From Yoonia sediminilitoris (GTDB lineage Bacteria > Pseudomonadota > Alphaproteobacteria > Rhodobacterales > Rhodobacteraceae): a stretch of 64,000 nucleotides of DNA. The position numbers were made by a program, and so were the translations under genes. The stretch's first letter is position 1, and each line of letters begins with the position of its first letter. This document shows positions 22,739 through 53,268 of the stretch, piece by piece. The notes under the pieces are model-generated. The model was not told the DNA's origin. It made no database searches and was given only the letters and a program-made list of their open reading frames with translations. The DNA lies in assembly GCF_003058085.1 (NCBI RefSeq), contig NZ_QBUD01000004.1, forward strand, positions 186,001 to 250,000, in the 5' to 3' direction.

Positions 22739-22752
22739 TTGACCTACGTCAA
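22739..22752. promoter_or_regulatory. FNR/FixK-type box upstream of the accessory ftsH
   Basis: TTGACCTACGTCAA has both half-sites intact. Centre 22745.5 would place a -41.5 activated start near 22787, giving a 29-nt leader for the gene at 22816. Confidence 0.65.
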
Positions 22753-22815
22753 AGTGCAGACCTCGCAAATCGCCGACGATCAGCTGACTTTGGGACCCCA
22801 GCGAAAGCTTTTGCG

Positions 22816-24723: not shown

Positions 24724-24820
24724 ACCGTGCAATCTTGTCGTGGCGGTGGCGCGTTTCCACATGGCGATCTTCGCTTTTTCTTGGTATCTGTCGGGGTGCA
24801 AAGCGAATAGAAAGCCTGAT

Positions 24821-25588: not shown

Positions 25589-25592
25589 ACCC

Positions 25593-26630: not shown

Positions 26631-26642
26631 GAGCTGGCCCGC

Positions 26643-28033: not shown

Positions 28034-28088
28034 GGTGGACCTCTTTGATTAAAACATCGTCACCTTAAGGCCACCAAAGCATTTAACA

Positions 28089-28102
28089 TTGAGATAGGTC
28101 AA
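28089..28102. promoter_or_regulatory. FNR/FixK-type box between usp and cbpA
   Basis: TTGAGATAGGTCAA, both half-sites intact. Its centre (28095.5) would put -41.5 starts near 28137 rightward (19-nt leader to cbpA) and near 28054 leftward (21-nt leader to usp). A single site could therefore serve both directions. Confidence 0.65.
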
Positions 28103-28155
28103 ACTATTCGCTGTGCAGATTGGCTAGACATGACTAGACCAAGCGGGACAGAACT

Positions 28156-29079
28156 ATGGTTGACAATACACATTACGAAGCGCTTGGCGTGCCGCGTGAC
28201 GCCAGCGCTGACGACATCAAGCGGGCCTATCGCAAGATGGCGCGCAAATATCACCCGGATGTCGCCACTGATCCCGATGCGGATGCAAAGTTCAAAGCCG
28301 CAGGAGAGGCCTATTCGGTCCTGAGCGACCCGGAATCCCGGGCCGCCTATGACCGCTACGGCGCTGATTGGGATCAGCCGCGCCCTGAGCCCGACCAACA
28401 AAGAGCCGGTGCGGGGTCGCGGTGGGGTGGCGGCTTTGCCTTTGATGACCGCGACATCAATGCCGACAGTTTCCGCGACTTTTTTGGTGGCCGGTTTGGC
28501 GGTGGATTTGGTGGTGGATTTGACAGGTCAGCAATGCAACGCGATCAACACGCCCGCATCGAAATACCGCTGGAGGATGCCGTCGCTGGCGCCAAGCGGG
28601 CGGTGACGCTGCAAATGCCGCAGCTTGACCAGACAGGTCACGTCACGATGGAGCAACGCACGATTGATCTGACCATTCCCAAAGGTGTCATGCCGGGTCA
28701 ACAACTGCGTTTACGAGGGCTGGGGACCGCTGGTGGCGACCTGTTCGTCGAAATCGCGTTTCAGCCCCATCCTGTTTACAGGATAGAGGGGCGCGATCTT
28801 TTTGTAGCCCTGCCCGTCACCCCTTGGGAAGCTGCCTTGGGCGGCAAGGTTAAAATGCCGACACCGACAGGCAAGGTGGACCTTAAAATCCCCCCAAATG
28901 CGCGGCATGGCCAGAAATTGCGCCTGCGCGGTCGTGGATTGCCCGGCGCACAAAAGGGCGATCTGTACGCTGTGCTGCATATCGTGAACCCGCCAAACCT
29001 GTCGCAAAAGGCCCGCGACCTGTACCGCCAGTTGGCAAGCGAATCCAGCTATGATCCGCGATCAAACTTAGGAGCATGA
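28156..29079 (+). CDS. cbpA: CbpA-type DnaJ family co-chaperone
   Basis: 307 residues. J domain 7-70 with HPD at 33-35 (KYHPDVATDPDADAKF). A Gly/Phe-rich stretch (GGRFGGGFGGGF) follows, then two DnaJ C-terminal substrate-binding domains (RIEIPLEDAVAGAKRAVTL; VKMPTPTGKVDLKIPPNARHGQKLRLRGRG). There is no zinc-finger repeat, so it is CbpA/DjlA-type rather than DnaJ. It delivers clients to DnaK and may bind curved DNA. It is followed 4 bp later by its modulator cbpM. Confidence 0.93.
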   Translation: MVDNTHYEALGVPRDASADDIKRAYRKMARKYHPDVATDPDADAKFKAAGEAYSVLSDPESRAAYDRYGADWDQPRPEPDQQRAGAGSRWGGGFAFDDRDINADSFRDFFGGRFGGGFGGGFDRSAMQRDQHARIEIPLEDAVAGAKRAVTLQMPQLDQTGHVTMEQRTIDLTIPKGVMPGQQLRLRGLGTAGGDLFVEIAFQPHPVYRIEGRDLFVALPVTPWEAALGGKVKMPTPTGKVDLKIPPNARHGQKLRLRGRGLPGAQKGDLYAVLHIVNPPNLSQKARDLYRQLASESSYDPRSNLGA

Positions 29080-29083
29080 GATC

Positions 29084-29401
29084 ATGAAAAAGGCCGTCAA
29101 ACGCAATCCATCCGTCGATATGATCGAGACCCTGACGCTATCAGAGCTCACCATTTTCTGTGACACCAACGCTGATTGGGTTTTGGGGCTGGTCGAGCAT
29201 GGGATCGTCACCCCGATTGCCAAACCGTCGACAGAGCTGCAATTTGAACCGGCACACATTGCCCGGGCCCGCAAAGCCAGCCGGCTAATGCGTGATCTGG
29301 GCCTGAATTTTGCCGGTGTCGGCCTTGTGCTGGACCTGATCGAAGAACGCGACGCACTGGCCCGCAAGCTGGCGATGTTTGATACCTACGATCATGCCTG
29401 A
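29084..29401 (+). CDS. cbpM: CbpM-type chaperone modulator (MerR-fold)
   Basis: 105 residues. The helix-rich ELTIFCDTNADWVLGLVEHGIVTPI with the trailing AHIARARKASRLMRDLGLNFAGVGLVLDLIE is the CbpM pattern. CbpM binds the J domain of CbpA and blocks its activity. Immediate coupling to cbpA supports the assignment. It is convergent with the decayed PAS-EAL gene. Confidence 0.9.
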   Translation: MKKAVKRNPSVDMIETLTLSELTIFCDTNADWVLGLVEHGIVTPIAKPSTELQFEPAHIARARKASRLMRDLGLNFAGVGLVLDLIEERDALARKLAMFDTYDHA

Positions 29402-40771: not shown

Positions 40772-41611
40772 CTATTTTGAGTAAAGGACCGGGATTTTTG
40801 CATCGCTCAACAATGCACGCGACACCGCACCGATGACGAAATCATAGGTACGCGAATGGCCAAAGGCGCCTGTGACAAGAAGGTCTGCGCCGATTTCGAA
40901 TGCCTCATGGCTTAGAACGTCAGCGACCTTTTCGCCGGCCTGTTCACGGTGGATAACCGACACATCGTGTCCGTAACGCGCCAATGCAGCAGCAAGGTCA
41001 TTTGTGTCAAAGTCCGACAATTCGTCGCCAGTCGCCTTGTCGATCCGCAATATGCTGACTTTTGCGTCCGGGCTGATCACCTGTTCCATGTCATGCGCGG
41101 CGCGGGTTGCTTCGCGTGTGGGGCTCCACCCCAGAACGACGGTGTCGCCCAATGTGTCAGCCTGATAACCGCGCGGGATGACCAGTACCGGGCGGCCGGA
41201 TTCGCGGATGACGCGCTCTTGCAGGTTGTTCATCATCGTGCGGTCGTGACTGTCGTCTTCCTGCGCCATCACCACCAGATCAACGCTGCGGGCGCTTTCG
41301 ACGATGCGGTCGGCCACGGTCGCCGTGTCACTGGCCAGATGACGCCATTCGCTGGGAAAACCCTCTGCCCGGGTCTGTGCATCGAATATGTCCTTTAGAT
41401 CCTGCGTGTGGCCTTTTTGGCTGGTCGCAAAGGTCTGGTAGGTTATGTCGGGGATATGCATTGCAATACTGGGATAAACGATCAGTGACTCCGTGACATG
41501 CAACCCGATGACATGCGCATTGTCGCGCCGCGCGAGGATTGCAGCACATTTCATCACGTCGGCGGCAGAAGAAGTGTTGGTCAGGCAAACGAGGATGGTA
41601 CGCAAGGTCAT
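40772..41611 (-). CDS. Tandem universal stress protein
   Basis: 279 residues, two Usp domains; the C-terminal one keeps a GAFGHSRTYDFVIGAVSRALL-type nucleotide loop, with Ser replaced in part. It sits 56 bp after the hsp20 gene with a stem-loop in between, so read-through from the FNR-box promoter at 42227 is likely. Not close in sequence to the usp at 27.2 kb, although of equal architecture. Confidence 0.88.
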   Translation of the reverse strand: MTLRTILVCLTNTSSAADVMKCAAILARRDNAHVIGLHVTESLIVYPSIAMHIPDITYQTFATSQKGHTQDLKDIFDAQTRAEGFPSEWRHLASDTATVADRIVESARSVDLVVMAQEDDSHDRTMMNNLQERVIRESGRPVLVIPRGYQADTLGDTVVLGWSPTREATRAAHDMEQVISPDAKVSILRIDKATGDELSDFDTNDLAAALARYGHDVSVIHREQAGEKVADVLSHEAFEIGADLLVTGAFGHSRTYDFVIGAVSRALLSDAKIPVLYSK

Positions 41612-41635
41612 GATGGATACTCCCTATATTGAAGA

Positions 41636-41657
41636 CACCCGGCCAATGGGCCGGGTG
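41636..41657 (-). other. Stem-loop between hsp20 and usp
   Basis: CACCCGGCC pairs with GGCCGGGTG across a 4-base loop. No T-run on the minus strand. It may attenuate read-through or stabilise the mRNA; a strong terminator is unlikely. Confidence 0.45.
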
Positions 41658-41667
41658 CTGGCTTTTG

Positions 41668-42153
41668 TCAGGCTGACTTGACCGGAATCTTGCGATGGGT
41701 TGTCTTGGCTTCTGCGGGCTTTGCGATGGTCAGCTTGAGAACCCCGTCAGCGAAAGTGACATCGATGGCATCATCGGCAGGCGTGAAGCCCAAAGGCATC
41801 TGGCGGCGGAAACTGCCAAAGCTGCGTTCATGCAGGTGGTAGTCCTTTTCGTCTTCGGTGCGTTCTTGCGATTTCTCGCCTTTGATGACGAGGACATCAC
41901 CGTTCAGGCTGACGTCCAGATCGTCTGACGAAACACCGGGTATTTCGGCGGTAATTTCAAGTGTATCATCAGTTTCGGCCATATCGATGGCGGGCGATAG
42001 GGCCGCTCCCATGCCAAGCTGCGACAGTCCTTCATTGATGCGTGGATAGCCGCGAATCCGGTCCAGCATGCGTTCCATTTCCTGCTGAAGCTGTTCAAAG
42101 AACGGTTGCGGCGGCGTTGTTTTCGGTTGGACAGAAGGGGTTTTGGTGTCCAT
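41668..42153 (-). CDS. Hsp20/alpha-crystallin small heat-shock protein
   Basis: 161 residues. N-terminal helix region (FEQLQQEMERMLDRI), then the alpha-crystallin domain: AIDMAETDDTLEITAEIPGVSSDDLDVS, VLVIKGEKSQ, and the GVLKLTI strand. It holds unfolding proteins. GGAGA precedes the ATG. Probably driven from the FNR-type box at 42227-42240. Confidence 0.93.
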   Translation of the reverse strand: MDTKTPSVQPKTTPPQPFFEQLQQEMERMLDRIRGYPRINEGLSQLGMGAALSPAIDMAETDDTLEITAEIPGVSSDDLDVSLNGDVLVIKGEKSQERTEDEKDYHLHERSFGSFRRQMPLGFTPADDAIDVTFADGVLKLTIAKPAEAKTTHRKIPVKSA

Positions 42154-42226
42154 ATCGCGTCTCCATTTTCTGATCCGACACCCAGTCGTGTCCTACTGTT
42201 TCTATGCCAGCAAGCGTGGCACCGGT

Positions 42227-42240
42227 TTGATATTGCTCAA
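42227..42240. promoter_or_regulatory. FNR/FixK-type box between hsp20 and the bactofilin-like gene
   Basis: TTGATATTGCTCAA has both half-sites intact. Its centre gives -41.5 starts near 42192 leftward and 42275 rightward, with leaders of 39 and 27 nt. Confidence 0.6.
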
Positions 42241-42301
42241 TCACCGGGCATGGCAGGGCGGCTAGATATGGGGCAACCGTCTATTTTCAGGAGAATGCGC
42301 C

Positions 42302-43489
42302 ATGCGACAGCTATTAATGTGCGTCATCGTTGGTCTGGCCACCGCACTTGGCCCGGCCTCCGCCCAAGAGATGAGCCGCACCCATGGCGGTGATACATTT
42401 ATCGCAGCCGAGTCTGTCACCAAGAACCTGTCTGCCCCCGGCGACGTGTTTGCGGCGGGCAGCGCCATTACGACCTCAGGCAGTGCCAGTGGCGATATTC
42501 ATATTGCTGGATTTGATCTGGATATTTCAACGCAGGTGGGTGGAAATCTGTATGCGGCTGGCAGCAGCATCACGATTGGCGCGCCCGTCGCACAGGATGT
42601 GACGGCAGCGGGTTTTAGCCTGCGCAGCACGGCTGATGCAATCACAGACGGCAACTTGCGTTTCTTTGGGCGAAACCTGACGATTGAAGGGCCTGTTGCG
42701 GGCGCACTGACGGCCATGGGGGGTAACATCCACCTGAACGCGCCAGTGCAGGGCGAAGCGTGGATCGTGGCTGAAAGCGTGACCTACGGGCCGCAAGCGC
42801 GCATTGATGGCAATCTCATCCTGTCGGTTGAGGACGGCAAGCCGGTCCCGGTACGTGTACTGCCGGCAGAACGGATCACTCTTGAGGACTGGGACCGCGA
42901 TGAGGTCTTTGCAGAGTTGGAACGCAATTGGGACAGGGTCGAGATGCCTGGCTTGCCGATCTGGATGTCGCTGTTTTCGGCATTCCTGATCACGACCATC
43001 TTCCTGCTGCTCGTCGCGGCGGTATTCCTGACATTTGCTCCCAAGAGAGTGGAGCGATTGCGTGTACGGGTCACGGCCCAGCCGTTGCAGACTTTTTTGC
43101 TGGGGGTCATCGGCCTGTCGGCCTTGTTTGGCGTGGTGCCTGTGGCTGCACTGACGCTGATCGGGATACCTTTCATTCCGTTCGCGTTGCTGCTGATCGT
43201 TGTTGCTTGGACGCTGGGCTATCTGCTGGCTGCCTATGCTGTGGCGCGGCGCATTCTGGTGGCGTTCGGTGGTGCGCCTGATCCGTCTGTCGGGGTCAGG
43301 CTACTGGCTGTCGCTGGCGCGCTTGTCGCTGTGGCGATTTTGAACTTCATTCCATTCGTGGGCTGGGTCATCAACTATACGCTGGTACTGCTTGGAGTGG
43401 GTGCAATCACCGCTTGGCTCTTGTCCTCTTTCATCCCTGACCCTGACCCGGCTTTGGAATTGAACATGCGCGACAAGGCACCGGACTAG
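42302..43489 (+). CDS. Bactofilin-like beta-helix domain fused to polytopic membrane domain
   Basis: 395 residues. Signal peptide (LLMCVIVGLATALGPASAQ), then a repetitive beta-helix of the polymer-forming/bactofilin kind (residues about 35-170, with recurring GDVFAAGS, GDIHIAG, GNLYAAGS, GALTAMGGNIHLNA units). A hydrophobic C-terminal half with four or more TM helices (residues 215-380) follows. Function is unknown. Its stop TAG is created by MITE copy 2: the target TA plus the element's first G. The pre-insertion stop would have been TAA at the same codon. Confidence 0.78.
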   Translation: MRQLLMCVIVGLATALGPASAQEMSRTHGGDTFIAAESVTKNLSAPGDVFAAGSAITTSGSASGDIHIAGFDLDISTQVGGNLYAAGSSITIGAPVAQDVTAAGFSLRSTADAITDGNLRFFGRNLTIEGPVAGALTAMGGNIHLNAPVQGEAWIVAESVTYGPQARIDGNLILSVEDGKPVPVRVLPAERITLEDWDRDEVFAELERNWDRVEMPGLPIWMSLFSAFLITTIFLLLVAAVFLTFAPKRVERLRVRVTAQPLQTFLLGVIGLSALFGVVPVAALTLIGIPFIPFALLLIVVAWTLGYLLAAYAVARRILVAFGGAPDPSVGVRLLAVAGALVAVAILNFIPFVGWVINYTLVLLGVGAITAWLLSSFIPDPDPALELNMRDKAPD

Positions 43490-43756
43490 GGTCAGGCCCC
43501 ATTCATCCTGCATCGTCAGTTTGTCAGATTTTTTCTCTGACAAGGCACATCTGCGCAGGAATGGTCATTTACCTTCAAGCAGATGTAACGCCCCCTCTCG
43601 GGCATTGCTGCGCAATACCCTGCCTTGCAGCGCAAGCCGGGGATCCGCCTGTTCAGGGCTGAAACGATTCTCTGGATCGTTTCCAAGACGCCCTTTACCC
43701 ACTGATATTTCGTGAAATCCACGCTGACGGCGCAGGATGAATGGGTTTCGACCCTA
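43487..43756. mobile_element. MITE copy 2 with TA target duplication (270 bp)
   Basis: Flanked by TA at 43487-43488 and 43755-43756. The left end begins GGGTCAGGCCCCATTCATCC; the right end, reverse-complemented, begins GGGTCGAAACCCATTCATCC. The arms align along their length with copy 1 (26643-27181), which carries 272 extra internal bases. No coding capacity. The left TA falls inside the stop codon of the gene at 42302-43489. Confidence 0.88.
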
Positions 43757-43782
43757 AGAGCAAAAAGTGTCAAAGCATGCAA

Positions 43783-43820
43783 AAACCCTGTTTTTGCGCG
43801 ATTTGCAGAAACAGGGTTGT
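43783..43820 (-). terminator. Terminator of the Crp/Fnr gene
   Basis: AACCCTGTTT pairs with AAACAGGGTT around a 15-base loop; on the minus strand it runs into TTTTTGC. It sits 40 bp past the regulator's stop. Confidence 0.65.
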
Positions 43821-43836
43821 TAGGGTCAGGACCCTA
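43821..43836. repeat. TIR-tip palindrome (possible MITE excision footprint)
   Basis: TAGGGTCAGGACCCTA: TA, the first 8 bases of the MITE end (GGGTCAGG), then the outer tip of the other end (ACCC) and TA. This is what imprecise excision of the same element could leave. It lies 65 bp from MITE copy 2. Confidence 0.45.
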
Positions 43837-43860
43837 TGTCGCTTTCGTTTTGTGTCCGCT

Positions 43861-44535
43861 TCAGTCGTCTTGACCCTCTGCAATGCTGCGCAAGGCCTTC
43901 GGCTTGAGGATGATCACCGTATTGATATGGTCAATCGCAACGATCTTGGATTTGCGCAGTTGCGTAAAGGTCCGACTGACTGTTTCAGTGGTCAGCCCCA
44001 GAAAATCCGCGATATCGGACCGGGTCATTGGCAGGCTGACCTGCGTGAAGTCGCCCAGTGGGGTGCCCACGCGGTCTGTCAGGACCATCAGGAAAGACGC
44101 CAGTTTCTCAACCGAGGATTTGCGCCCCAACATCATGAAGTGATCCTGCATCGCGCTGATTTCGCGCAGCGCAGCCCTAAGCAGCCGTTGGTGCAGCGCC
44201 GCATCCCCTTTGGACGTTTCAAGATCGGACCGGCGGTGCACCACAAGTGTTGTGGGCACAATCGCGTCGCAATCGGTATGATAATAGCCGTCGCTTGGAA
44301 ATCCGACAGTGTCGCCGGGATAACCAAAAGCGATCACCTGCCTGCGCCCGTCTTCCAACATACGAGTCAGACGCAAAACACCGGAAGTCACTTCATAGAT
44401 ACGGTTGGCCGGATCACCTTCGAGAAACAGATGTTTCCCGGGTTTCAACGTCATCGTCCGGCGGTGCGTAATTTCCGGCACAATTTTGTCATCATCATAA
44501 GTCTCAACGAATTGGGTAGGGTCAGTCACATACAT
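43861..44535 (-). CDS. Crp/Fnr-family regulator (FixK/DNR-like, no FNR cysteine cluster)
   Basis: 224 residues from ATG 44535 (SD GGAAAGGAAG). Cyclic-nucleotide-type beta-barrel (about 20-130) and winged helix with recognition helix DFLGLTTETVSRTFTQLRK. The E183-T-V-S-R187 residues match regulators binding TTGA-N6-TCAA. Only one Cys is present in the sensor domain, so it cannot bind an FNR 4Fe-4S cluster. This resembles FixK/DNR-type regulators in which the signal is redox or NO via heme or upstream kinases. It is the best local candidate to read the boxes listed here. Confidence 0.88.
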   Translation of the reverse strand: MYVTDPTQFVETYDDDKIVPEITHRRTMTLKPGKHLFLEGDPANRIYEVTSGVLRLTRMLEDGRRQVIAFGYPGDTVGFPSDGYYHTDCDAIVPTTLVVHRRSDLETSKGDAALHQRLLRAALREISAMQDHFMMLGRKSSVEKLASFLMVLTDRVGTPLGDFTQVSLPMTRSDIADFLGLTTETVSRTFTQLRKSKIVAIDHINTVIILKPKALRSIAEGQDD

Positions 44536-44699
44536 GGCAGCTTCCTTTCCTGACGATGGAAAGAAACTGCGCGGTGCTTGTATCCGGCGGTAGTTGGGCC
44601 GCGTATCCGATTGTATCAATTTGTAACCGCAACCTAAATATGCTAGAAATGGAATGTGAATTCCCCAACTATTGTTTCAGACAAGCGGAGTGGGTGAGC

Positions 44700-45437
44700 A
44701 TGGTGAACAATGCAACAATCTTGGTCGTTGACGACGACCCGAAGATTAGGACGCTGCTGCGTCGCTGCCTTGAAGGCGATGGAAACAGCGTCGTCGAAGC
44801 TTTTGACAGGCACAGTACGCTGAATGCTGTGGCCCATGCCCCCATTGATCTGATTACCCTCGATCTTAACCTTGGTCCGGACGACGGGGTCGAGATTGCG
44901 CGCCAGATAAGAACTAAATCAGATGTGCCGATCATCATGGTCACGGCCAAGCAAGACGTGATCGACCGGGTCGTGGGGCTGGAGATTGGTGCAGATGACT
45001 ATATCACCAAACCGTTTCACCCCCGCGAGGTCGTCGCACGAATCAGGTCAGTCTTGCGGCGTGCGCGCGGGATCGCGCCGCCTGCTGCTACTGGTGTGCC
45101 AAGCGACTGTTTGTGCTTTGACGGGATGAATGTTGTCCTTGACCAGATGTCATTGTGGGATCGCGATGGCAAATCGGTCGATTTGACCAGCGGCGAATTC
45201 AAACTGCTTGAGGTCTTTCTGACGCGCCCTAAACGCGTCCTGTCGCGCGAACAGTTGATGGATCTGGTTGGCGGACACAGCTATGCCCCGCTGGACCGTA
45301 CCATCGACAACCAGATTGCAAGGCTACGTAAGAAAATCGAACGGGACCCTGCACGTCCAAAGCTGATTTCGACCATCCGGGGGATCGGCTATTCCTTCAC
45401 CTGCGAAGTCGAAAAGAAAGAGGATCAGCGGGCCTGA
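44700..45437 (+). CDS. OmpR-family response regulator
   Basis: 245 residues from ATG 44700. Receiver with acidic pocket D11-D13, phospho-acceptor D55 (LITLDLNLGPDDG) and K104 (YITKPFHP). The C-terminal winged helix is about 150-235 (LTSGEFKLLEVFLTRPKRVLSREQL, ending RTIDNQIARLRKKIERDP..ISTIRGIGYSF). It diverges from the Crp/Fnr gene, and its end overlaps the tail of the hybrid kinase gene by 13 bases, the two being convergent. The cognate kinase is uncertain. Confidence 0.93.
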   Translation: MVNNATILVVDDDPKIRTLLRRCLEGDGNSVVEAFDRHSTLNAVAHAPIDLITLDLNLGPDDGVEIARQIRTKSDVPIIMVTAKQDVIDRVVGLEIGADDYITKPFHPREVVARIRSVLRRARGIAPPAATGVPSDCLCFDGMNVVLDQMSLWDRDGKSVDLTSGEFKLLEVFLTRPKRVLSREQLMDLVGGHSYAPLDRTIDNQIARLRKKIERDPARPKLISTIRGIGYSFTCEVEKKEDQRA

Positions 45438-46954
45438 AACAGCGCCGCAAGTGCCTTGGCCAAATCAGATTGCCGATAAGGTTTGCACAGAATTTCGTGG
45501 TTCAGTGTTTCGCCTTGTCGGCTCAGGATATCTTCGGCGTAGCCGGAGGTGAGCAAGACGCGGATATGCGGGTAGGTGGCTACGACGTGTCGCGCCAGCG
45601 CCAACCCGTCCAGGTCCCCGGGCATGACAAGGTCGGTAAAGACGGCGTCAATGTCAGGGTCATCGCGCAGGATACCGGCAGCCGTGTCCCCGCTATCAGC
45701 CTCGCGGACGTTGTAGCCCAAGTCATTCACCCGCGCGACGCTTAGCTTGCGAACCTGCGCATTGTCTTCGACGATCAGCACCGTCTGGTCCTTGCCGCGC
45801 GGCGGATGAATATCGTTGTTTTGTTGTGATGTATTTGCATTCAGCGGATCAATAATTGGAAAATACAGCCCAATCGTCGTGCCGTGCCCGATCTCACTAT
45901 AGACTGTGACATGCCCGCCCGATTGCCGCACGAACCCATAGACCATCGCCAGCCCCAATCCGCTGCCTTTGCCGACAGGCTTGGTCGTAAAAAACGGTTC
46001 AAACACCCGCTGTTGCGTATCAGGCCCCATGCCGCGCCCGGTGTCGGCAACGCTGATGCGCACATAGGCGCCTTGGGCCACATCAAGTTCCTGGGCAATA
46101 TAGGTGTCGTCGATATCTACCAGTTCGGTCTTGACGATCAGCGTCCCCCCATCGCCCATAGCTTCGCGGGCGTTCAGTGCGATATTGATCAGGGCAGATT
46201 GCAGTTGCGTGCTGTCGGTAATAACCGGCGGTAGATCCTCACTCAAATGCGCCGTGATGACATAACGGGGATCAAAGGTGCGCCGCAACAGCGAAAGGGC
46301 GGCATTACACGATGTATTTATGTCCGTGGGCTGACTGTGGCTCGGTGCCTTGCGCGCAAAGGCGTTCAGTCCGTCCGTCAGGTCTGCGCCCAGTTCGGCA
46401 GCTTCAAGCGCATCGCGCACCATCGCTTGCGCGGTATCATCGGACAGATGGGGTTCCAACAGTTCAAGATTGCCGATCACGACCGTCAGCAGGTTGCTGA
46501 AATCATGGCTGATGCCACCGGTCATCTGCCCAATGGCATCAAGCCGGGCAGAGCGGGACAGCGCCTCTTGGGTGGCGTGCCGCTGAGAGAGGTCATGCAG
46601 GATGGCGACAAAATGTGGGCCCCCGTCGTGGTCGGCCCGCCCGATCGACAGATGCAATGGAAAGGTGTCACCATTGCGCCGAAGCCCTTCGACCGTGCGA
46701 CCGCGACCGATAATCCGGGCCTGCCCTGTCTCCAGATGCCCCTGCATGAAATCATCATGCCGTTTCGCCAGCGCGCGGGGCATGATCATATTTACCCGAT
46801 TGCCCACCATGTCGGCCGGGTCGTGGCCGAACAGTTTGCCCGCCGCACTGTTGGCGCGAGTAATCGTACCCGCCGCGTCACTCATCACAACGGCGTCTGG
46901 TATTGCGTCAAGCAACGCGCCCAAGAGATGAGTATCAGAGGTTCGGTCATTCAT
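45425..46954 (-). CDS. Hybrid histidine kinase: PAS, HisKA, HATPase, receiver
   Basis: 509 residues from ATG 46954. PAS domain 10-125 (VVMSDAAGTITRANSAAGKLFG), H150 in GISHDFSNLL, HATPase N box NIALNAREAM, G1 ADTGRGMGP and G2 GKGSGLGLAMVYG. A receiver follows with phospho-acceptor D441 (VFTDLVMPG) and K491. No membrane helix, so it is cytoplasmic. The PAS HIGRADHDGG region resembles FixL-type PAS (MIMPRALAKRHDDF is FixL-like), but heme binding cannot be shown. A FixL-like role next to a FixK-like regulator is plausible. Confidence 0.9.
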   Translation of the reverse strand: MNDRTSDTHLLGALLDAIPDAVVMSDAAGTITRANSAAGKLFGHDPADMVGNRVNMIMPRALAKRHDDFMQGHLETGQARIIGRGRTVEGLRRNGDTFPLHLSIGRADHDGGPHFVAILHDLSQRHATQEALSRSARLDAIGQMTGGISHDFSNLLTVVIGNLELLEPHLSDDTAQAMVRDALEAAELGADLTDGLNAFARKAPSHSQPTDINTSCNAALSLLRRTFDPRYVITAHLSEDLPPVITDSTQLQSALINIALNAREAMGDGGTLIVKTELVDIDDTYIAQELDVAQGAYVRISVADTGRGMGPDTQQRVFEPFFTTKPVGKGSGLGLAMVYGFVRQSGGHVTVYSEIGHGTTIGLYFPIIDPLNANTSQQNNDIHPPRGKDQTVLIVEDNAQVRKLSVARVNDLGYNVREADSGDTAAGILRDDPDIDAVFTDLVMPGDLDGLALARHVVATYPHIRVLLTSGYAEDILSRQGETLNHEILCKPYRQSDLAKALAALFQAR

Positions 46955-47008
46955 TACGCGCCTACTGTCTGGTATCGACGCAAGATAAGCTAGTCTTCCG
47001 CCCGCACC

Positions 47009-47022
47009 ATGACATAGATCAT
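47009..47022. promoter_or_regulatory. Weak FNR-type box between hybrid kinase and attachment gene
   Basis: ATGACATAGATCAT is a near-palindrome that misses one outer base in each half-site of TTGA-N6-TCAA. It lies 60 bp from the rightward gene. Confidence 0.3.
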
Positions 47023-47068
47023 ATCTGTCTTCGATTGCCAGTCTAGTTTGCGCAGGCAAGACAGGAGA

Positions 47069-47512
47069 ATGATGATGAAGAAAACGAAGACTTGGATCGT
47101 TTTGGCGGACACTTCCGCCGTCCGTATTGCCGTCAACGACGGGCCGGCCAAAGGCGTCTACGGGATCAGCACGAAAGAACTGCAAGCCCCCACTGTCACA
47201 GAGCTATCGGACGAACCGGGGATGACCAAAGCACCCTTTGGCCCTGACCGGGGCAATATCTCTGACCCTGATCTGAAAGGACAGGCCGCAGCAGCTTTCG
47301 CAACAGATATCGTCAATTTTCTGGATGCAGAGCAGGCCAAAGACAGCTTTCAGCGGCTTGTTCTGGTGGCTCCTCCGGCGATGCTGGGCCTTCTGCGCGA
47401 CCGTCTGACCCCGCGCCTGCGTGACATTTTGCGCGCTGACATTCCCAAGGATCTGACGCATCTGCCGCTGGACAAGCTGCCCGCGCATCTGGAGGATGTT
47501 CTGCCCGTTTAG
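47069..47512 (+). CDS. Host-attachment-family (DUF/AtsE-like) protein
   Basis: 147 residues from three consecutive ATGs (47069, 47072, 47075) after AGGAG; the last has the best spacing. TWIVLADTSAVRIAVNDG at the start, GRNISD-like DRGNISDPDLK, and FQRLVLVAPPAMLGLLRDRL followed by DLTHLP match the 'protein required for attachment to host cells' family. The family name comes from one study of plant attachment; the general role, possibly RNA/ribosome or stress-related, is not settled. Confidence 0.8.
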   Translation: MMMKKTKTWIVLADTSAVRIAVNDGPAKGVYGISTKELQAPTVTELSDEPGMTKAPFGPDRGNISDPDLKGQAAAAFATDIVNFLDAEQAKDSFQRLVLVAPPAMLGLLRDRLTPRLRDILRADIPKDLTHLPLDKLPAHLEDVLPV

Positions 47513-47522
47513 GGGCGGGATT

Positions 47523-48239
47523 CTAGGGGTGAAACATGCGCCCCACTGCAAATGCAAGAACCGCAGCAAGCCCCCCGATCAGCAGGGTTTCAAGGCCTGA
47601 CTTCCACCAGGGCGCCAGCGACCAGCGTGATTTCGCAGCGCCGATGCCGAAAAAGCAGGCCGCCGAAGTCACAACCGACCATGAAAAAGCATCGGGCAAT
47701 CCAATCAGATAGGGCAGAAGGGGCAACATACCTGCCGCCACAAAGGCACCGAAAATCACAAACGCGGCCTGAATCGGGCGCGGGTCGGTAATAGGCAACC
47801 CGTATTCTTCGGCCAGCATCAGGGAAATCCACTGTTCCTTGTCCTCGCTGATCATGATGCCCGCATCCTGCCGGACCTGACCGCGCAGGCCCTTGCGCGC
47901 AAGGATCTGGTCCAGTTCGTCCAACTCGCCCTGCCTGTTCACGGCGATATGGCGCTCTTCGACGGCCCAAAGCCTGCGCCTGTCATCGGCAAGCGCCTTT
48001 GTCCCCGAAAAGTTGCCCGCAGCCATCGAAAAACCGTCGGCCAGCACATTCGCCAGACCAAGGGCCACGACAATGCCTGTGGACAGTCCCGCCCCCTGTA
48101 CACCCGCGACAATCGCAAAGGTGGTCACAGTCCCGTCAATCCCGCCGAAAATCGCATCGCGCAGCCGTCCGCTATCATTATTTTGCTGATCCAGCCGGGC
48201 TGCGATCTCTTCCATGGAATGCCCGTGTTCAAGTGCCAT
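47523..48239 (-). CDS. VIT1/CCC1-family divalent-metal transporter
   Basis: 238 residues. RLRDAIFGGIDGTVTTFAIVAGVQGA is the first TM of the family, with a metal-binding cytoplasmic helix region (DRRRLWAVEERHIAVNRQGELDELDQIL) and four more helices. Members move Fe2+/Mn2+ out of the cytoplasm. It overlaps the P-type ATPase by 11 bases and is read after it, so the two are likely co-translated. Confidence 0.9.
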   Translation of the reverse strand: MALEHGHSMEEIAARLDQQNNDSGRLRDAIFGGIDGTVTTFAIVAGVQGAGLSTGIVVALGLANVLADGFSMAAGNFSGTKALADDRRRLWAVEERHIAVNRQGELDELDQILARKGLRGQVRQDAGIMISEDKEQWISLMLAEEYGLPITDPRPIQAAFVIFGAFVAAGMLPLLPYLIGLPDAFSWSVVTSAACFFGIGAAKSRWSLAPWWKSGLETLLIGGLAAVLAFAVGRMFHP

Positions 48240-50820
48240 TGCTATCTCCTGTGATGCGGATCGTTTTGATCAATTCTGGCAGAAGGATCAGCGGCAGGCA
48301 AAACAGGCCGATCATCTGCCATTCTGCCCAGCCCAGCGCGGTCGTGTGCAGCAAGCTCTGCAAGGGTGGCCAATAGACGGCCGCCACCTGCGCGCCCAAT
48401 GTCACTACCAGCGCCAGCAGCAGAAACGGATTGCTGAGTAACCCGATTTTCCAGCAGGGCGACCGCAACGACCGAAAGGCAAAGACGCTGAATTTCTCGA
48501 ACGCAACCATGGCCGTGAACGCCGCCGTTCGCGCCAGCGTTTCGTCAACGGGCAGGAGTTGCCAGAAAATCCACAGGCTGCAAAGCCCCGTATAGACCCC
48601 AAAGACCGCGATCATCGCAAAGCCGGACCAGCCAAGGACAGGGGCGTTGATCTTGCGGGGCGGGTCTTTCATCTGGCCCGGTTCCGGTTTTTCCAGCCCC
48701 AATGCCACGGCGGTCAGCCCGTCGGTGATCAGGTTCATCCAAAGGATCTGTGTCGCCAGAAAGATCAGCGGCCCGCCGATCAGGATGTTGCAAAGGATCG
48801 CCACGACCTCGCCCGCGTTTGACGACAGCAGATAGCGCACGAATTTGCGCAGGTTATCGAACTGCCGCCGTCCTTCGCGCATGGCGGCGATTATCGTGGC
48901 GAAATTATCGTCGAGCAGCACCAGATCAGCGGCATCCTTGGCAACATCCGTGCCCCTTATCCCCATGGCGATCCCGATGTCGGCCTGTTCGAGCGCTGGT
49001 GCGTCATTCACCCCGTCGCCGGTCATGGCCACGATCTGCCCTTGCTTTTGCAGCAGCGACACGATCCGCATCTTGTCGGCAGGTTGGGCACGCGCAATCA
49101 GCATATCCTGCGCCAGTCCGTCCGCCAGGTCGGCGTCTGACATGGCAGCCAGCGCGTCGTGGGTGATGACCCAGTCGGGTTGCAGGCCGACGCTTTGCGC
49201 GATGGCCTTGGCAGTGACGGGACTATCGCCGGTGATCATGATGATCCTTGCCCCGGCAGAGTGGGCCTGCGCCACGGCATCGGGAATTTCCGGGCGCGGC
49301 GGGTCGATGATGCCCACCAATCCCAAAAAAACCAGCCCTTCTTCGCGCAGGATGCCATCGGGGGCAGGTGCGGTCGCAAGAGCGATCACCCGGTGCCCGT
49401 TTTCGGCAAGTGCTGTATAGGCGGCGTCGATTTCCGCGCGCCCCGCGTCCGTCAGCGGCACCGGCCCATCCGGCCCTAAAATTTCACTGCAAAGATCGCG
49501 CAGTTTTTCCGGCGCGCCCTTGGTGAAGACCTGCGGGCCATCTGCAGTCTGGCGCAGCACGCTCATCCTTTTGCGGTCACTGTTAAAAGGGCGTTCATCA
49601 AGAATGTTTTCAGGGTCAGGCAATGGCGCCCAACCTTTGTAGGCAAGGGTGATCAGTGCGCCTTCGGTCGGACTGCCGATCATGGTCCAGCCGGTCCGGT
49701 CATGCTGGAGCGTGGCATTGTTGCAACCGGCACAGACCGCCAAAAGCTGCGCTAGCAGCGGATCGTTCGACGCGCGGCGCTTGGCCTGTCCGGCGGCAAT
49801 ATACCCTGCGGGGTCGTAGCCAGTGCCAGTGATCTGGTATTGTTCTTGCGGAGTCCAGATCCGCGTGGCGGTCATCTTGTTTTCGGTCAGGGTGCCGGTT
49901 TTGTCCGTGCAGATGACAGAGGCCGCGCCAAGCGCCTCGATTGCTTGCAAGCGCCGCGTTAAAGCGTGTTGCCGGACCAATGCCGCCGCACCAAGTGCGA
50001 TGGTTATAGTGACAACGGCGGGAAGCCCCTCTGGTACCATGGCGACGGCCAGTGAAATCGCAGTCATGAACATTTCGGTCGCCGGGCGGCCGTAAAGCAG
50101 GCCCAGCAGCATCACGCCAGCCCCGATCATCAATGCCGCCGCACCCAATTGCCGGGCGAGCTGGCCCAGTTGCTGTTGCATGTGGGTCTGGCGCGGGATG
50201 ACCGAGCCGGTCAGTAGCGCGATCTCGCCAAATTGGGTCTGGGTGCCAATATCTGTAACACGCGCCATGCCGCGCCCTTCGACGATGTTTGTTCCCATCA
50301 GGATGGTGGCATCATCACTGTCTTTGCTGACCGGTACGGATTCGCCGGTCAGCGCGCTTTCATCAGCTGAAAGCGCGGTCTGTTCGATCAGCGCGGCGTC
50401 TGCTGGCACCCTGTCACCAGTGGCAACCAAGATGATATCGCCGGGCACAAGATCACGGGCCGGGATTTGTAACTGGCGGCCATTGCGCAGCACGGTCGCT
50501 TGCGGGGACAGCATATTGCGCAAAGCATGCAGGGCATTCTCGGCCCGCCATTCCTGCACAAAACCCAAAGCCCCATTCAGAAAAATGACGACCCCGATTG
50601 CAATCGTATCTATACGCTCGCCCGCGACAAAGGCGATGGCGGCTGCAATTACAAGGATCACCACCAGAACATTGGTGAACTGCCGCAAAAGGATACGCAG
50701 CGCCGAAGGGCCCGCCGTTTGCGGTAATTCGTTCCACCCGTGGGACTTGTGCAGAGCCGAAACCTGTTGGCTTGTCAGCCCAACTGTCTGATCGTCATTC
50801 ATCACATGGCAATCCGTCAT
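48229..50820 (-). CDS. P2A-type (Ca2+/Mn2+) P-type ATPase
   Basis: 863 residues if started at ATG 50820; ATG 50802 is an alternative. Phosphorylation site D306 in CTDKTGTLTENKM. TM4 VPEGLP and TM6 MNLITDGLTAVALG match Ca2+-site residues of SERCA-type pumps. TGDGVNDAPAL hinge and TGES present. It exports Ca2+ or Mn2+ from the cytoplasm. A box at 50837-50850 lies just upstream and would predict a start at or near 50802. Spacing to VIT1/CCC1 is negative (11 bases overlap). Confidence 0.93.
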   Translation of the reverse strand: MTDCHVMNDDQTVGLTSQQVSALHKSHGWNELPQTAGPSALRILLRQFTNVLVVILVIAAAIAFVAGERIDTIAIGVVIFLNGALGFVQEWRAENALHALRNMLSPQATVLRNGRQLQIPARDLVPGDIILVATGDRVPADAALIEQTALSADESALTGESVPVSKDSDDATILMGTNIVEGRGMARVTDIGTQTQFGEIALLTGSVIPRQTHMQQQLGQLARQLGAAALMIGAGVMLLGLLYGRPATEMFMTAISLAVAMVPEGLPAVVTITIALGAAALVRQHALTRRLQAIEALGAASVICTDKTGTLTENKMTATRIWTPQEQYQITGTGYDPAGYIAAGQAKRRASNDPLLAQLLAVCAGCNNATLQHDRTGWTMIGSPTEGALITLAYKGWAPLPDPENILDERPFNSDRKRMSVLRQTADGPQVFTKGAPEKLRDLCSEILGPDGPVPLTDAGRAEIDAAYTALAENGHRVIALATAPAPDGILREEGLVFLGLVGIIDPPRPEIPDAVAQAHSAGARIIMITGDSPVTAKAIAQSVGLQPDWVITHDALAAMSDADLADGLAQDMLIARAQPADKMRIVSLLQKQGQIVAMTGDGVNDAPALEQADIGIAMGIRGTDVAKDAADLVLLDDNFATIIAAMREGRRQFDNLRKFVRYLLSSNAGEVVAILCNILIGGPLIFLATQILWMNLITDGLTAVALGLEKPEPGQMKDPPRKINAPVLGWSGFAMIAVFGVYTGLCSLWIFWQLLPVDETLARTAAFTAMVAFEKFSVFAFRSLRSPCWKIGLLSNPFLLLALVVTLGAQVAAVYWPPLQSLLHTTALGWAEWQMIGLFCLPLILLPELIKTIRITGDSNGT

Positions 50821-50836
50821 GTGGGTGCATTGTGCG

Positions 50837-50850
50837 TTGATCAAGATCAA
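50837..50850. promoter_or_regulatory. Perfect FNR-type box between the P-ATPase and the phasin-like gene
   Basis: TTGATCAAGATCAA is a perfect match to TTGAT-N4-ATCAA. The -41.5 geometry gives a start near 50885 rightward (25-nt leader to 50910), and near 50802 leftward. Confidence 0.7.
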
Positions 50851-50909
50851 TCAGGGATTAATAACTGCTGCTAAACGTCGCGCCATCTGTTCGTTCACAG
50901 GAGGCGACG

Positions 50910-51257
50910 ATGGCAAAAAAGACAACTGAAAGCACCCTGTCGGCGGGTGAATTGGCAATTGAACATCTGCAAGAAGTGGGCATCAGACCAATGACCGCCA
51001 TGGGTGCGGCGTGGATCGAAAGCATGGCTGATCTGAACAGGGAAATGATCGGCTTTGTTGCGGACAGGATCAAGGAAGATGTGAAGGTGCAGCAGCAATT
51101 GCTGCACTGCAAGCGCCCCGCAGATTTTCAAAAGGTGCAGTTGGCCTTTTTTGAAAAAGCCTATCGGCAATATACGGACCAAACCGGCAAATTGCTGAAG
51201 ATGAGCATGGAACTGCTGCCCCGCGCATCGGGCGGGGCCAAGAGCACACCCCTTTAG
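50910..51257 (+). CDS. Phasin-family-like protein
   Basis: 115 residues from ATG 50910 with CAGGAGG upstream. Amphipathic helices with the phasin pattern: MAAWIE-like MGAAWIESMADLNREMIGFVADRIKEDVKVQQQLLHCK and FEKAYRQYTDQTGKLLKM. Phasins coat PHB granules. Here the gene is not with phaAB or phaC but next to an FNR-type box, so it may serve low-oxygen PHB storage or be a general membrane-coating protein. Confidence 0.75.
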   Translation: MAKKTTESTLSAGELAIEHLQEVGIRPMTAMGAAWIESMADLNREMIGFVADRIKEDVKVQQQLLHCKRPADFQKVQLAFFEKAYRQYTDQTGKLLKMSMELLPRASGGAKSTPL

Positions 51258-51267
51258 GGTGTGCTCT
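51241..51267. terminator. Bidirectional hairpin between phasin-like gene and MBL hydrolase
   Basis: AGAGCACACCC and GGGTGTGCTCT pair perfectly (11 bp) across a 5-base loop that includes part of the phasin stop codon. T-run is absent, but the convergent layout fits a shared terminator. Confidence 0.55.
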
Positions 51268-51278
51268 GGCTGCGATGG

Positions 51279-52160
51279 TCAGAGCTTGTTCACCGGGACT
51301 TTCAGCATCTCGTTGCCGTCTGCATCTGTGGGAATTTCACCCGCCCGCATGTTGACCTGCAACGACGGGATGATCAGCCGTGGCATACCAAGTGTTGCAT
51401 CCCGTTCGGTCCGGAATTTGATGAAATCCTCACGGGTCTTGCCGCCACCGACATGGATGTTGTCGGCCTTTTCTTCGGCGACTGTCGTTTCCCATTTGAA
51501 ATCTCGTCCGTTTGGCCCGTAATCGTGGCACATATAAAGTCGCATCTCGTCAGGCAGCGCCAGTACCTTTTGAATGCTGTCGTAAAGTGTTCCTGCGTCG
51601 CCGCCGGGGAAGTCGGCGCGCGCTGACCCGCCATCAGGCATGAAAAGCGTATCACCGACAAAGCAGGCGTCGCCAATCACGTGAACCATGCAGGCGGGCG
51701 TGTGGCCGGGGGTTGATATCGCGAACCCTTGCATGGTGCCTATCCTGTAGGTGTCGCCATCTTTGAAAAGCGCGTCAAACTGCGACCCGTCGCGCTGGAA
51801 TTCGGTGCCTTCGTTAAAGACCTTGCCGAATGTGTCCTGCACCACGGTAATCTTATCACCGACGCCGATTTTACCGCCCAGCTTTTGCTGGATATAGGGG
51901 GCGGCACTCAGATGGTCTGCATGAACGTGGGTTTCGATGATCCAGTCCAGTTTCAGATCGCGGCGCTTGATTTCGGCGATGATCGCATCGGCGCTGTCAA
52001 AGGTAATGCGGCCCGCCGCATAGTCGATATCCATCACGCTGTCGATAACAGCGCAATGGTCGCTGGCAGGGTCATGTACGATGTAGCTGATCGTGTTGGT
52101 GGCCTCATCAAAAAACGCCGACACATCGGGTTTGACGGACATATTCACGGGGTAGGACAT
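51279..52160 (-). CDS. Persulfide-dioxygenase-like MBL-fold metallohydrolase (Blh/ETHE1 type)
   Basis: 293 residues. Metal ligands H78, H80, D82, H83 in ETHVHADHLS, then H in STPGHTPACMV, D in GDTLFMPDGG and H in YMCHDYG. The insert after the active site (GGSARADFPGGDAGTLYDSIQ) is that of sulfur-oxidising ETHE1/Blh enzymes, which oxidise glutathione persulfide to sulfite. No rhodanese domain. An FNR-type box lies 66-79 bp upstream. Confidence 0.88.
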   Translation of the reverse strand: MSYPVNMSVKPDVSAFFDEATNTISYIVHDPASDHCAVIDSVMDIDYAAGRITFDSADAIIAEIKRRDLKLDWIIETHVHADHLSAAPYIQQKLGGKIGVGDKITVVQDTFGKVFNEGTEFQRDGSQFDALFKDGDTYRIGTMQGFAISTPGHTPACMVHVIGDACFVGDTLFMPDGGSARADFPGGDAGTLYDSIQKVLALPDEMRLYMCHDYGPNGRDFKWETTVAEEKADNIHVGGGKTREDFIKFRTERDATLGMPRLIIPSLQVNMRAGEIPTDADGNEMLKVPVNKL

Positions 52161-52225
52161 GTTGTTTCCTCACGCTGCCTTGGGTCAATTATTGGGCCAA
52201 GATAGCCGCCCGGACCAAGGCAACA

Positions 52226-52239
52226 TTGATCCGGATCAA
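52226..52239. promoter_or_regulatory. Perfect FNR-type box upstream of MBL hydrolase
   Basis: TTGATCCGGATCAA is a perfect palindromic match. The -41.5 start would be near 52191, giving a 31-nt leader. It overlaps the last codons of the DksA/TraR-like gene. Confidence 0.7.
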
Positions 52240-52568
52240 CGTGACGCTTCGGCCTGCGCTGCACAGACCCGGCAAACCTGCGCATAGAGCACTGCATTCA
52301 GCCGTTCGGGCGAAATATCATCGCCACATTTCTGGCAGATGCCGTAAGTGCCGTCTTTGATCCGGTCCAGAGCCTGACCCAATAAACGTACTTCTTGCTG
52401 GTTGGCCTGCGCGATCCCTTCCAGCACCTCGTCATCTTCAAGGTCAATGGCCTGATCTTCCAGATCTGAGTCCAGCGGTTGCTCAAGATCCTTTTCGATC
52501 CGTCGTATGTTCTTCGTCAGTTCGGCAATCCGGTCACTGATCAGTGTTTCATACTGTTTGATGTCCAA
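52236..52568 (-). CDS. DksA/TraR-family C4 zinc-finger protein
   Basis: 110 residues from TTG 52568 with AAGGAGA upstream (LDIKQYETLI); longer starts lack a ribosome binding site. A coiled coil (LEQPLDSDLEDQAIDLEDDEV) leads to CQKCGDDISPERLNAVLYAQVCRVC, the C4 zinc finger. The acidic tip of DksA is partly kept. Such short relatives act on RNA polymerase or are stress-linked. An intact FNR-type box (52627-52640) lies upstream. Confidence 0.85.
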   Translation of the reverse strand: MDIKQYETLISDRIAELTKNIRRIEKDLEQPLDSDLEDQAIDLEDDEVLEGIAQANQQEVRLLGQALDRIKDGTYGICQKCGDDISPERLNAVLYAQVCRVCAAQAEASR

Positions 52569-52626
52569 TGGAGGTCTCCTTGCGATGAATGGCTTGGCTA
52601 TTCTGGATGGATCGGCGCGGGCCCAA

Positions 52627-52640
52627 TTGACGAAGATCAA
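52627..52640. promoter_or_regulatory. FNR-type box upstream of DksA/TraR gene
   Basis: TTGACGAAGATCAA, both half-sites intact. Centre 52633.5 gives a -41.5 start near 52592 and a 24-nt leader to TTG 52568. Confidence 0.65.
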
Positions 52641-52659
52641 TGCATCGTTCGCAAATCCG

Positions 52660-53268
52660 TCAGGTGGACCGTGTTGTGACCCATGCCACCACATCGGGCA
52701 GCAGGCTATCCAGCAGTTGTTGAAAACCGCGTGTGATCGGTTCGGGCTGGTCGCTGCCAATCAGCAGATCGCCTGCGAATTGCCGCGTCCCAAGGACGCG
52801 CTGGTCGCGGTCGCGCAGCATTGTCAGTTCAACAGCGACCTGCACGCGGAATTGGCCGTCGCCCGTCACATCGACACCAAACTGGTCGATGCGCGAGAGA
52901 AGTACCGTATCGGGGACAGGCCCTGCCCCTTGCGCCCCTACAAACCCGATGCGCCCCGACGCGGCAAGCGACTGGATCAGAACAGATTGCAGCATATCGG
53001 GCACGGCAGCAGACCAGCGCACATCGGGCAGATAGGTCACAGACAGGGGCGATTTCCGGATCAGGATACGATCAGATGCAATTGCCGCCGGTGCCGTAGG
53101 GTCCAGCACCAGCAGTGTGCCTGCCGACCGCCTGCCGGCCATCGCGCGGCGCACAGGCTGCAATTCATAGGTGTCACGCGGCGTTGCGGCCTCATTCAGC
53201 GATTGGATTGCGGCACAACCCGGCAACGAAGCCAGACCAAGTATCACAAGACGGCGGGGTATCATCAT
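52660..53268 (-). CDS. PqiC/LetC-like ABC transport auxiliary lipoprotein
   Basis: 202 residues. Lipobox LPGC (MMIPRRLVILGLASLPGC) makes a periplasm-facing lipoprotein. TYELQPVRRAMAGRRSAGTLLVLDPTA and the RDQRVLGTRQF block match the PqiC/YmbA family, which works with MCE-domain transporters at the outer membrane. It is the last gene of the mla-like operon, 6 bp after mlaD. Confidence 0.85.
   Translation of the reverse strand: MMIPRRLVILGLASLPGCAAIQSLNEAATPRDTYELQPVRRAMAGRRSAGTLLVLDPTAPAAIASDRILIRKSPLSVTYLPDVRWSAAVPDMLQSVLIQSLAASGRIGFVGAQGAGPVPDTVLLSRIDQFGVDVTGDGQFRVQVAVELTMLRDRDQRVLGTRQFAGDLLIGSDQPEPITRGFQQLLDSLLPDVVAWVTTRST

Follow-up and report, generated by a model that had tools for sequence, protein, structure and literature searches.

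The window analysed here is a 64-kb stretch of contig C4 in the 4.67-Mb genome of Yoonia sediminilitoris, and it holds an island of stress and metal genes gathered around a regulatory triad: a FixK-type Crp/Fnr activator, an OmpR-type response regulator and a hybrid histidine kinase (Table 1). Judged from sequence, the island very probably represents an oxygen-responsive two-step gene switch together with its target genes. It appears to be a known circuit in another lineage, set beside stress genes rather than nitrogen-fixation genes: by sequence comparison, its anatomy and both of its DNA sites match the hFixL-FxkR-FixK cascade of rhizobia, whereas the kinase does not match in a reciprocal best-hit test. 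The initial annotation of this DNA had described a low-oxygen/stress cluster around a FixK-like protein with a FixL-like hybrid kinase adjoining it, a description that our comparisons support, and Pfam recovered all the genes that it had named in the cluster. It described only a shared promoter motif, and the K-box switch before fixK escaped it.

The site of rhizobial FxkR, the K-box, is GTTACA-N4-GTTACA (PMC4999443, PMC7888657), and one such site lies between fixK and the regulator gene in the window. A search with FixK alone as query gave 129 relatives, of which 80 were retained as 64 orthologous loci (L065-L128, including the Cohaesibacteraceae metagenome-assembled genome L125) and 16 distant ones (L129-L144, including L133, a Rhodobacterales contig truncated so that upstream DNA is lacking). 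Taking the window and the 64 orthologous loci together, a K-box was present in 63 of 65 upstream regions with up to 3 mismatches and in 45 of 65 with up to 2, compared to 56 and 11, respectively, of 1280 random 200-mers from the same loci. All of these sites shared the strand of fixK, and most lay between 91 and 95 bases upstream of it. When 64 intergenic regions were aligned, no conserved stretch was longer than that of the half-site columns, whose major base had a mean frequency of 0.89 (0.45 elsewhere). The same method recovered the rhizobial K-boxes of R. etli fixKf and R. johnstonii fixK9a (0 mismatches) and fixK9b (1 mismatch), and two Sinorhizobium plasmids had K-boxes with 0 and 1 mismatch. 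Locus L085 had no K-box; its contig extends only 135 bases beyond the fixK start and is hence uninformative on the regulator. A third half-site, GATACG at 44602-44607, lies 4 bases past the K-box of the window, keeping the 10-bp spacing, and is less conserved.

FixK and its regulator were also sought in 198 genomes of the family. The cluster had been thought to be kept often in Rhodobacteraceae, which did not hold, as a fixK orthologue (at least 40% identity and at least 132 bits) occurred in only 23 of the 198, the genome of the window included. A regulator scoring at least 235 bits, with at most 13 candidates scored per genome, was found in 22 genomes, every one of them among the 23 with fixK; fixK and the regulator are thus inherited together in 22 of 23 genomes. 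The K-box was present in 19 of 22 loci fetched from this sample, the others being L046, L047 and L048. L047 is an informative exception: it comes from the sole genome (G188) with fixK and no such regulator, and its K-box is likewise missing. Some species are present in both sets of loci (e.g. L042 and L070). Among the 16 distant fixK homologues a K-box was found only in L131, on the opposite strand, and the regulator and kinase were both nearby in two loci only, L131 and L138. A wide K-box regulon is not claimed: exact GWTACA-N4-GWTACA occurred at two sites in the genome, versus one for the reversed control.

The response regulator is of the OmpR type and orthologous to FxkR, as in the hFixL-FxkR-FixK type. 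With R. johnstonii FxkR9 (from pRL9) as query, it was the top match in the whole genome, with 217 bits vs 157 for the next, and a FastTree tree set FxkR and the Rhodobacterales regulators apart from seven other OmpR-type regulators of the genome with a support of 0.96. The domain layout, judged without a membrane predictor, does not fit the FixLJ-FixK type with its FixJ-type regulator and membrane-bound FixL: the regulator is OmpR-type, the kinase carries a receiver, and no more than about 20 residues separate the inferred start from the PAS domain. Regulator and kinase starts were placed 48 and 77 codons, respectively, inside long listed frames; the most likely ones are 44700 for the regulator and 46954 for the kinase, giving the latter 509 residues rather than the 586 codons of the listed frame.

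The second switch is the anaerobox, searched as TTGAYN4RTCAA with at most 1 mismatch within 300 bases upstream, skipping loci with less than 250 bases there. Over its full length, the window contained 13 matches, compared to 6.6 +/- 2.4 in shuffled sequences, of which 2 of 100 reached 13. Exact TTGATN4ATCAA occurred at 24 places in the genome, two of them within the cluster, and its reversed control pattern at none. Across the orthologous loci, a box preceded Hsp20 in 36/36 (31 exact), the bactofilin-like gene in 41/42 (38 exact), baeRF in 20/20 (11 exact), phasin in 25/26 (6 exact), VIT1 in 20/23 (1 exact) and the P-type ATPase in 16/26 (3 exact), while 3.1% of random 300-mers had a box and 0.15% an exact one. 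The density of exact boxes was 1.05 per 10 kb in island loci vs 0.075 in 20 control regions of 20 kb, which were a non-random choice made by shifting coordinates in fixK-bearing family genomes. The universal stress protein (Usp) gene of the window has no box of its own, lies 56 bp from Hsp20, and is probably co-transcribed with it.

A different picture was obtained for the regulatory genes in a recount over 150 bases from the inferred starts, in which loci with less than 80% of that stretch were skipped. Boxes were found before fixK in 0/64 and before the regulator in 0/63 loci (1.8% in random 150-mers), and before the kinase in 28/59, of which 17 were exact and the majority lay around -70. 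When the fixK stretch was widened to 300 bases, 9/63 had a box, at -173 to -300. Thus, the claim that most of the clustered genes have the same promoter motif stands for the effector genes and fails for fixK and the response regulator, both of which lack it. With the K-box before fixK and the regulator, and the anaerobox before the effectors and about half of the kinase genes, the arrangement suggests the wiring of a two-step cascade, possibly with feedback on the sensor. The kinase box was present in 18/20 loci with baeRF and 10/39 without it; in those 18 loci one anaerobox is common to the sensor kinase and baeRF, a possible route of such feedback.

The proposed reader of these boxes is the FixK-type protein. 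It had been described as lacking iron-sulfur (FeS) cysteines, and indeed there are none among its first 30 residues; 38 of the 64 orthologues likewise have none in these positions, 20 have one and 6 have two. It does not carry the N-terminal cysteine motif of the FnrL/FnrN-type direct FeS sensors. The same genome encodes an FnrL with that motif on contig C4, about 213 kb from the island and beside a ccoN-like gene, with an anaerobox between the two. At lower oxygen, FnrL is likely to read these boxes too, and it could share in their control or dominate it. One could go further and take FnrL as the real activator of the island, with FixK redundant and the triad serving other targets. This is the strongest of the alternatives, and one that we find rather unlikely. 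In its favour, three Usp genes of Dinoroseobacter shibae are directly activated by FnrL (PMC5398030), and R. leguminosarum UPM791 has a small heat-shock gene whose anaerobox lies at -87.5 and whose micro-oxic induction, about 50-fold, depends on FnrN (PMC11784457); the Hsp20 box of the window has its centre at -80.5. The position of the island genes argues for FixK instead: they adjoin the triad (regulator in 63/64 loci, kinase in 62/64), whereas FnrL is far away. Linkage is no proof of control, and FixK and FnrL may both act.

The sensor of the predicted cascade is the hybrid kinase. The best PDB matches of its PAS domain were FixL structures (E about 1e-26), and it aligned with their heme histidine and distal arginine, which we take to have these roles in the FixL PAS. 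In an alignment of 63 kinases (the window, 58 loci whose hits spanned over 450 query residues and 4 rhizobial ones), the heme histidine was kept in 60, and the distal arginine, the HisKA histidine and the receiver aspartate were each kept in all 63; the window kinase has all four. Heme PAS domains can bind nitric oxide and carbon monoxide, and three kinases of the set, those of L099, L118 and L128, lack the heme histidine while keeping the arginine, so that the PAS might sense nitric oxide, carbon monoxide or redox state rather than oxygen. We regard such a signal as improbable, considering that FixL is the closest solved relative of this PAS and that both residues are so widely kept. The three kinases without the histidine perhaps have a changed signal.

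The neighbourhood of the triad is conserved. Besides the regulator and kinase, the 64 orthologous loci contained Usp in 43 (a count to which paralogous Usp hits can contribute), the bactofilin-like gene in 42, Hsp20 in 36, the P-type ATPase in 29, phasin in 26, VIT1 in 23 and baeRF in 20; counts on the phasin side are lower bounds, since the fetched 10-kb flank may end before those genes. The 20 control regions gave one hit each for the regulator and the kinase and none for other island genes. The nearest records among the retained relatives were an uncultured Rhodobacteraceae bacterium (L065, FixK identity 80%) and Yoonia maricola (L066, 85% over residues 20-223), and the latter is colinear with the window from phasin to Usp. 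A loss of gene order in related genomes would have spoken against the initial annotation; instead, the order recurs. Chance clustering, or a mobile stress island with no common control, would suit the unrelated functions of the genes, the dispersed repeat inside, and triad relatives on Sulfitobacter, Tropicibacter and Sinorhizobium plasmids, and is nevertheless very improbable because the order recurs, the boxes stand at fixed distances, the G+C content differs little from the remainder of the window, and the control regions are nearly empty of island genes.

Several observations weigh against the two-step cascade. The K-box is missing despite a nearby regulator in L089 (4 mismatches) and in L046 and L048 (none within 3 mismatches), and it was not found in the distant locus L138, where regulator and kinase are both nearby. 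The recognition-helix pattern was matched by only 54 of the 64 FixK proteins. Usp has its own box in only 11/43 loci, all exact, and the window's box between baeRF and the kinase, ATGACATAGATCAT, is degenerate. With R. johnstonii hFixL9 as query, a CheB-CheR fusion kinase on contig C10 scored 494 bits vs 399 for the island kinase, which therefore fails the reciprocal best-hit test; judging from these scores, the kinase is a weaker case for orthology than the response regulator. The kinases without a heme histidine belong here as well. Finally, the locus tallies are non-independent trials because the loci come from related species.

We propose that the cascade would operate as follows. The hybrid kinase would hold heme in its FixL-type PAS domain and become active once oxygen leaves, and it would phosphorylate the convergently encoded OmpR-type regulator, the equivalent of FxkR by orthology. 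The regulator would bind the K-box and turn on fixK, and the cysteine-free FixK would then bind the anaeroboxes and turn on Hsp20-Usp, the bactofilin-like gene, baeRF, the P-type ATPase-VIT1 pair and phasin, both binding steps being suggested by comparative footprints. A feedback loop would be closed by the box that about half of the relatives have before the kinase gene. The regulon of this genome would also have gained the persulfide dioxygenase and the DksA-like protein, and perhaps the second Usp with CbpA-CbpM and FtsH. The output may prepare cells for micro-oxic energy limitation.

The closest known system is the hFixL-FxkR-FixK cascade of Rhizobium etli and R. leguminosarum, which likewise has a hybrid FixL-type kinase, a regulator that is not a FixJ homologue, a K-box upstream of fixK, a cysteine-free FixK and anaeroboxes on its targets (PMC4999443, PMC7888657). 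Cluster 2 of strain 3841 further shares the divergent fixK and fxkR with the K-box between them. Unlike the rhizobial cascade, the island is hosted in Rhodobacterales, its kinase gene is convergent with fxkR and forms no operon with fixK, and its neighbours are stress and metal genes, whereas those in rhizobia are genes for cbb3 oxidase (fixNOQP) and fixGHIS-type genes. The island K-box is also nearer to GWTACA-N4-GATACA and lies mostly at -91 to -95 from the start codon, compared to -101 to -106 in rhizobia. A Sulfitobacter plasmid stands between these two arrangements: its triad adjoins Usp genes as well as genes for cbb3 oxidase and of the fixGHIS type. On the Sinorhizobium meliloti plasmid pSmeSM11a and on pB of LMB1, fixK, the hybrid kinase and the regulator lie near genes for Usp, BON and acyl-CoA ligase proteins, and pB also has a P-type ATPase near the triad; these plasmids differ in gene order, and Hsp20 and phasin are not annotated in the stretches viewed. 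A plasmid origin of the island itself was considered and rejected: it has relatives on plasmids, but its contig also carries FnrL beside the ccoN-like gene, and there is no composition step in the window.

Much larger than the island, at about 50 genes, is the lxa locus of Burkholderia cenocepacia. In gene content, the only aspect compared, it resembles the island in holding six Usp genes along with metabolic genes and one gene of the metallo-beta-lactamase fold, and a FixK-like CRP regulator has been proposed to control it (PMC6127331). It differs in being betaproteobacterial and in that the FixK homologue, BCAM0049, is encoded away from the locus; in B. dolosa this homologue is controlled by FixLJ. 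CrpK of Rhodobacter sphaeroides is comparable as a Crp/Fnr protein without the four cysteines that binds FnrL-like sites and activates a Usp gene and a TraR-like gene (PMC4263372). In D. shibae, too, an Fnr-type regulator, FnrL, governs Usp genes when oxygen is low; its regulon differs by direct FeS sensing, and FixL and FixK are not mentioned in the accessible part of that paper (PMC5398030).

In 2016, a survey covering 50 alphaproteobacterial genomes reported FnrN alone for Rhodobacterales and traced the cascade back to the Rhizobiaceae ancestor (PMC4999443). We think it reasonably likely that the relay is not an invention of Rhizobiaceae for symbiosis and is found, orthologous, in marine Roseobacteraceae as a switch dedicated to a conserved island for micro-oxic survival, one that adds a heme-sensor tier before FnrL, feedback on the sensor, and new effectors such as the bactofilin-like protein and baeRF12. 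If so, the presence of cascade and K-box in Roseobacteraceae would change the history given by that survey, a graded oxygen response would be predicted in marine bacteria, and conserved genes whose role is unclear (bactofilin-like, baeRF12, phasin, and the Ca/Mn ATPase with VIT1) would gain a likely signal. It would also suggest an input for cysteine-free Crp/Fnr proteins of Rhodobacterales such as CrpK. A literature search, with most subscription papers outside its reach, found no paper extending the hFixL-FxkR-FixK cascade to the Roseobacter group, none combining FixL, universal stress, Roseobacter and Fnr, and nothing linking CrpK, FixK and Rhodobacter; its one paper naming both FxkR and Rhodobacterales was the 2016 survey.

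Table 1. Features of the island and related sites in the 64-kb window (mm, mismatch; positions relative to start codons refer to box centres).
Feature	Position	Strand	Remarks
Anaerobox TTGACCTACGTCAA	22739..22752		Between TauE-like (-) and FtsH protease (+) genes
Anaerobox	28089..28102		1 mm; between second Usp (27179-28033, -) and CbpA-CbpM (28156-29401, +)
Tandem universal stress protein (Usp)	40772..41611	-	PF00582
Hsp20 small heat-shock chaperone	41668..42153	-	PF00011
Anaerobox TTGATATTGCTCAA	42227..42240		1 mm; between divergent Hsp20 (-80.5) and bactofilin-like gene (-68.5); position conserved
Bactofilin-like protein	42302..43489	+	N-terminal hydrophobic helix, beta-solenoid domain, then long helices; absent from initial annotation
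Dispersed repeat element, inverted ends	43490..43758		Outside conserved island
FixK-type Crp/Fnr activator without N-terminal FeS cysteines	43861..44535	-	Best NCBIfam match FixK, 152 bits, under 300-bit cut-off
K-box GTTACA-AATT-GATACA	44612..44627	-	fixK/regulator intergenic region, upstream of fixK; 1 mm
OmpR-type response regulator, FxkR clade	44700..45437	+	PF00072, PF00486; start inferred
Hybrid histidine kinase, hFixL-like, FixL-type heme PAS and C-terminal receiver	45425..46954	-	Pfam PAS-HisKA-HATPase-REC; start inferred
Degenerate anaerobox ATGACATAGATCAT	47009..47022		2 mm; between kinase (-61.5) and baeRF (-32.5)
baeRF family 12/Host_attach protein	47048..47512	+	PF10116, PF18856; absent from initial annotation
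VIT1-family divalent metal transporter	47523..48239	-	PF01988; PDB 6iu3, E 2.7e-26
PMR1/SPCA-like Ca/Mn type-II P-type ATPase	48229..50850	-	TIGR01522, 641 bits, under 798-bit cut-off; PDB 8iww
Anaerobox TTGATCAAGATCAA	50837..50850		Exact; between P-type ATPase and phasin
Phasin-like protein	50910..51257	+	PF09361 (Phasin_2)
Persulfide-dioxygenase-type metallo-beta-lactamase (MBL) protein	51279..52160	-	Local addition; sulfur-dioxygenase kind
Anaerobox TTGATCCGGATCAA	52226..52239		Exact; -72.5 from persulfide dioxygenase gene
DksA/TraR-like protein	52236..52760	-	PF21173, PF01258; start uncertain, domain begins near 52553; absent from initial annotation
Anaerobox TTGACGAAGATCAA	52627..52640		Exact; upstream of DksA-like domain; 59 bases past end of initial annotation

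The genes for the persulfide dioxygenase and the DksA-like protein carry boxes here and, by locus comparison, lie outside the conserved island. The former protein matched NCBIfam NF040641 ('sulfur transferase/dioxygenase Blh') with 365 bits over its MBL part, under the 625-bit cut-off, and PDB 9g8t, 4efz and 4ysk with E about 1e-100 to 1e-105; ETHE1 (4chl) was matched at 1e-18. A sulfur enzyme had been counted as part of the combination of genes, and this part was not borne out: such an enzyme lay beside phasin in 0/20 loci with at least 1 kb there, and 3/64 loci had one on the other flank. The DksA-like gene was present in 5/64 loci.

The AlphaFold model of the bactofilin-like protein shows a beta-solenoid followed by long helices (pLDDT, the local confidence score, 87.5; pTM, the overall one, 0.53), and the protein is presumably a membrane protein. 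Its alignment comprised 29 of 40 usable loci and the window; 14 of these 30 homologues had a Bactofilin Pfam match, with a best E of 4.5e-5, and the window member itself had none. As a fold search with the model gave no PDB match at E <0.001, the name bactofilin-like is taken from these weak Pfam matches by themselves. The frame of the P-type ATPase also has ATG starts at 50820 and 50802. A search of the window for RNA families and transfer RNAs found none.

The dispersed repeat occurs again in the window at 26646-27182, with further copies on contigs C12, C3 and C1 of the same genome. In Y. maricola the gap from fixK to the bactofilin-like gene is about 170 bp and the repeat is missing there, and thus it is perhaps a recent insertion resembling a miniature inverted-repeat transposable element.

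Other possible sensors and split arrangements were seen outside the island. The fusion kinase of contig C10 (L224, 10491-15008) has 1505 residues in a CheB-CheR-PAS-kinase-receiver layout with a FixL-like PAS, and it lies near an Hsp20 gene and an anaerobox, making it a second possible heme sensor. On a 49-kb plasmid of Tropicibacter oceani (L230), fixK and the regulator adjoin each other next to a CBS-domain gene, and the kinase lies some 30 kb from them, beside a P-type ATPase and a cytochrome c gene; a small plasmid can thus hold the triad in two separate pieces. In the window, CbpA and CbpM are 11 to 12.6 kb from Usp, and they were found within 15 and 18 of the 64 loci, respectively; the second Usp was counted in 40 loci, including hits to the other Usp. 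The boxes in 22739-29401 possibly mark an outlying part of the same regulon, split from Usp by other genes including an ATP-binding cassette transporter.

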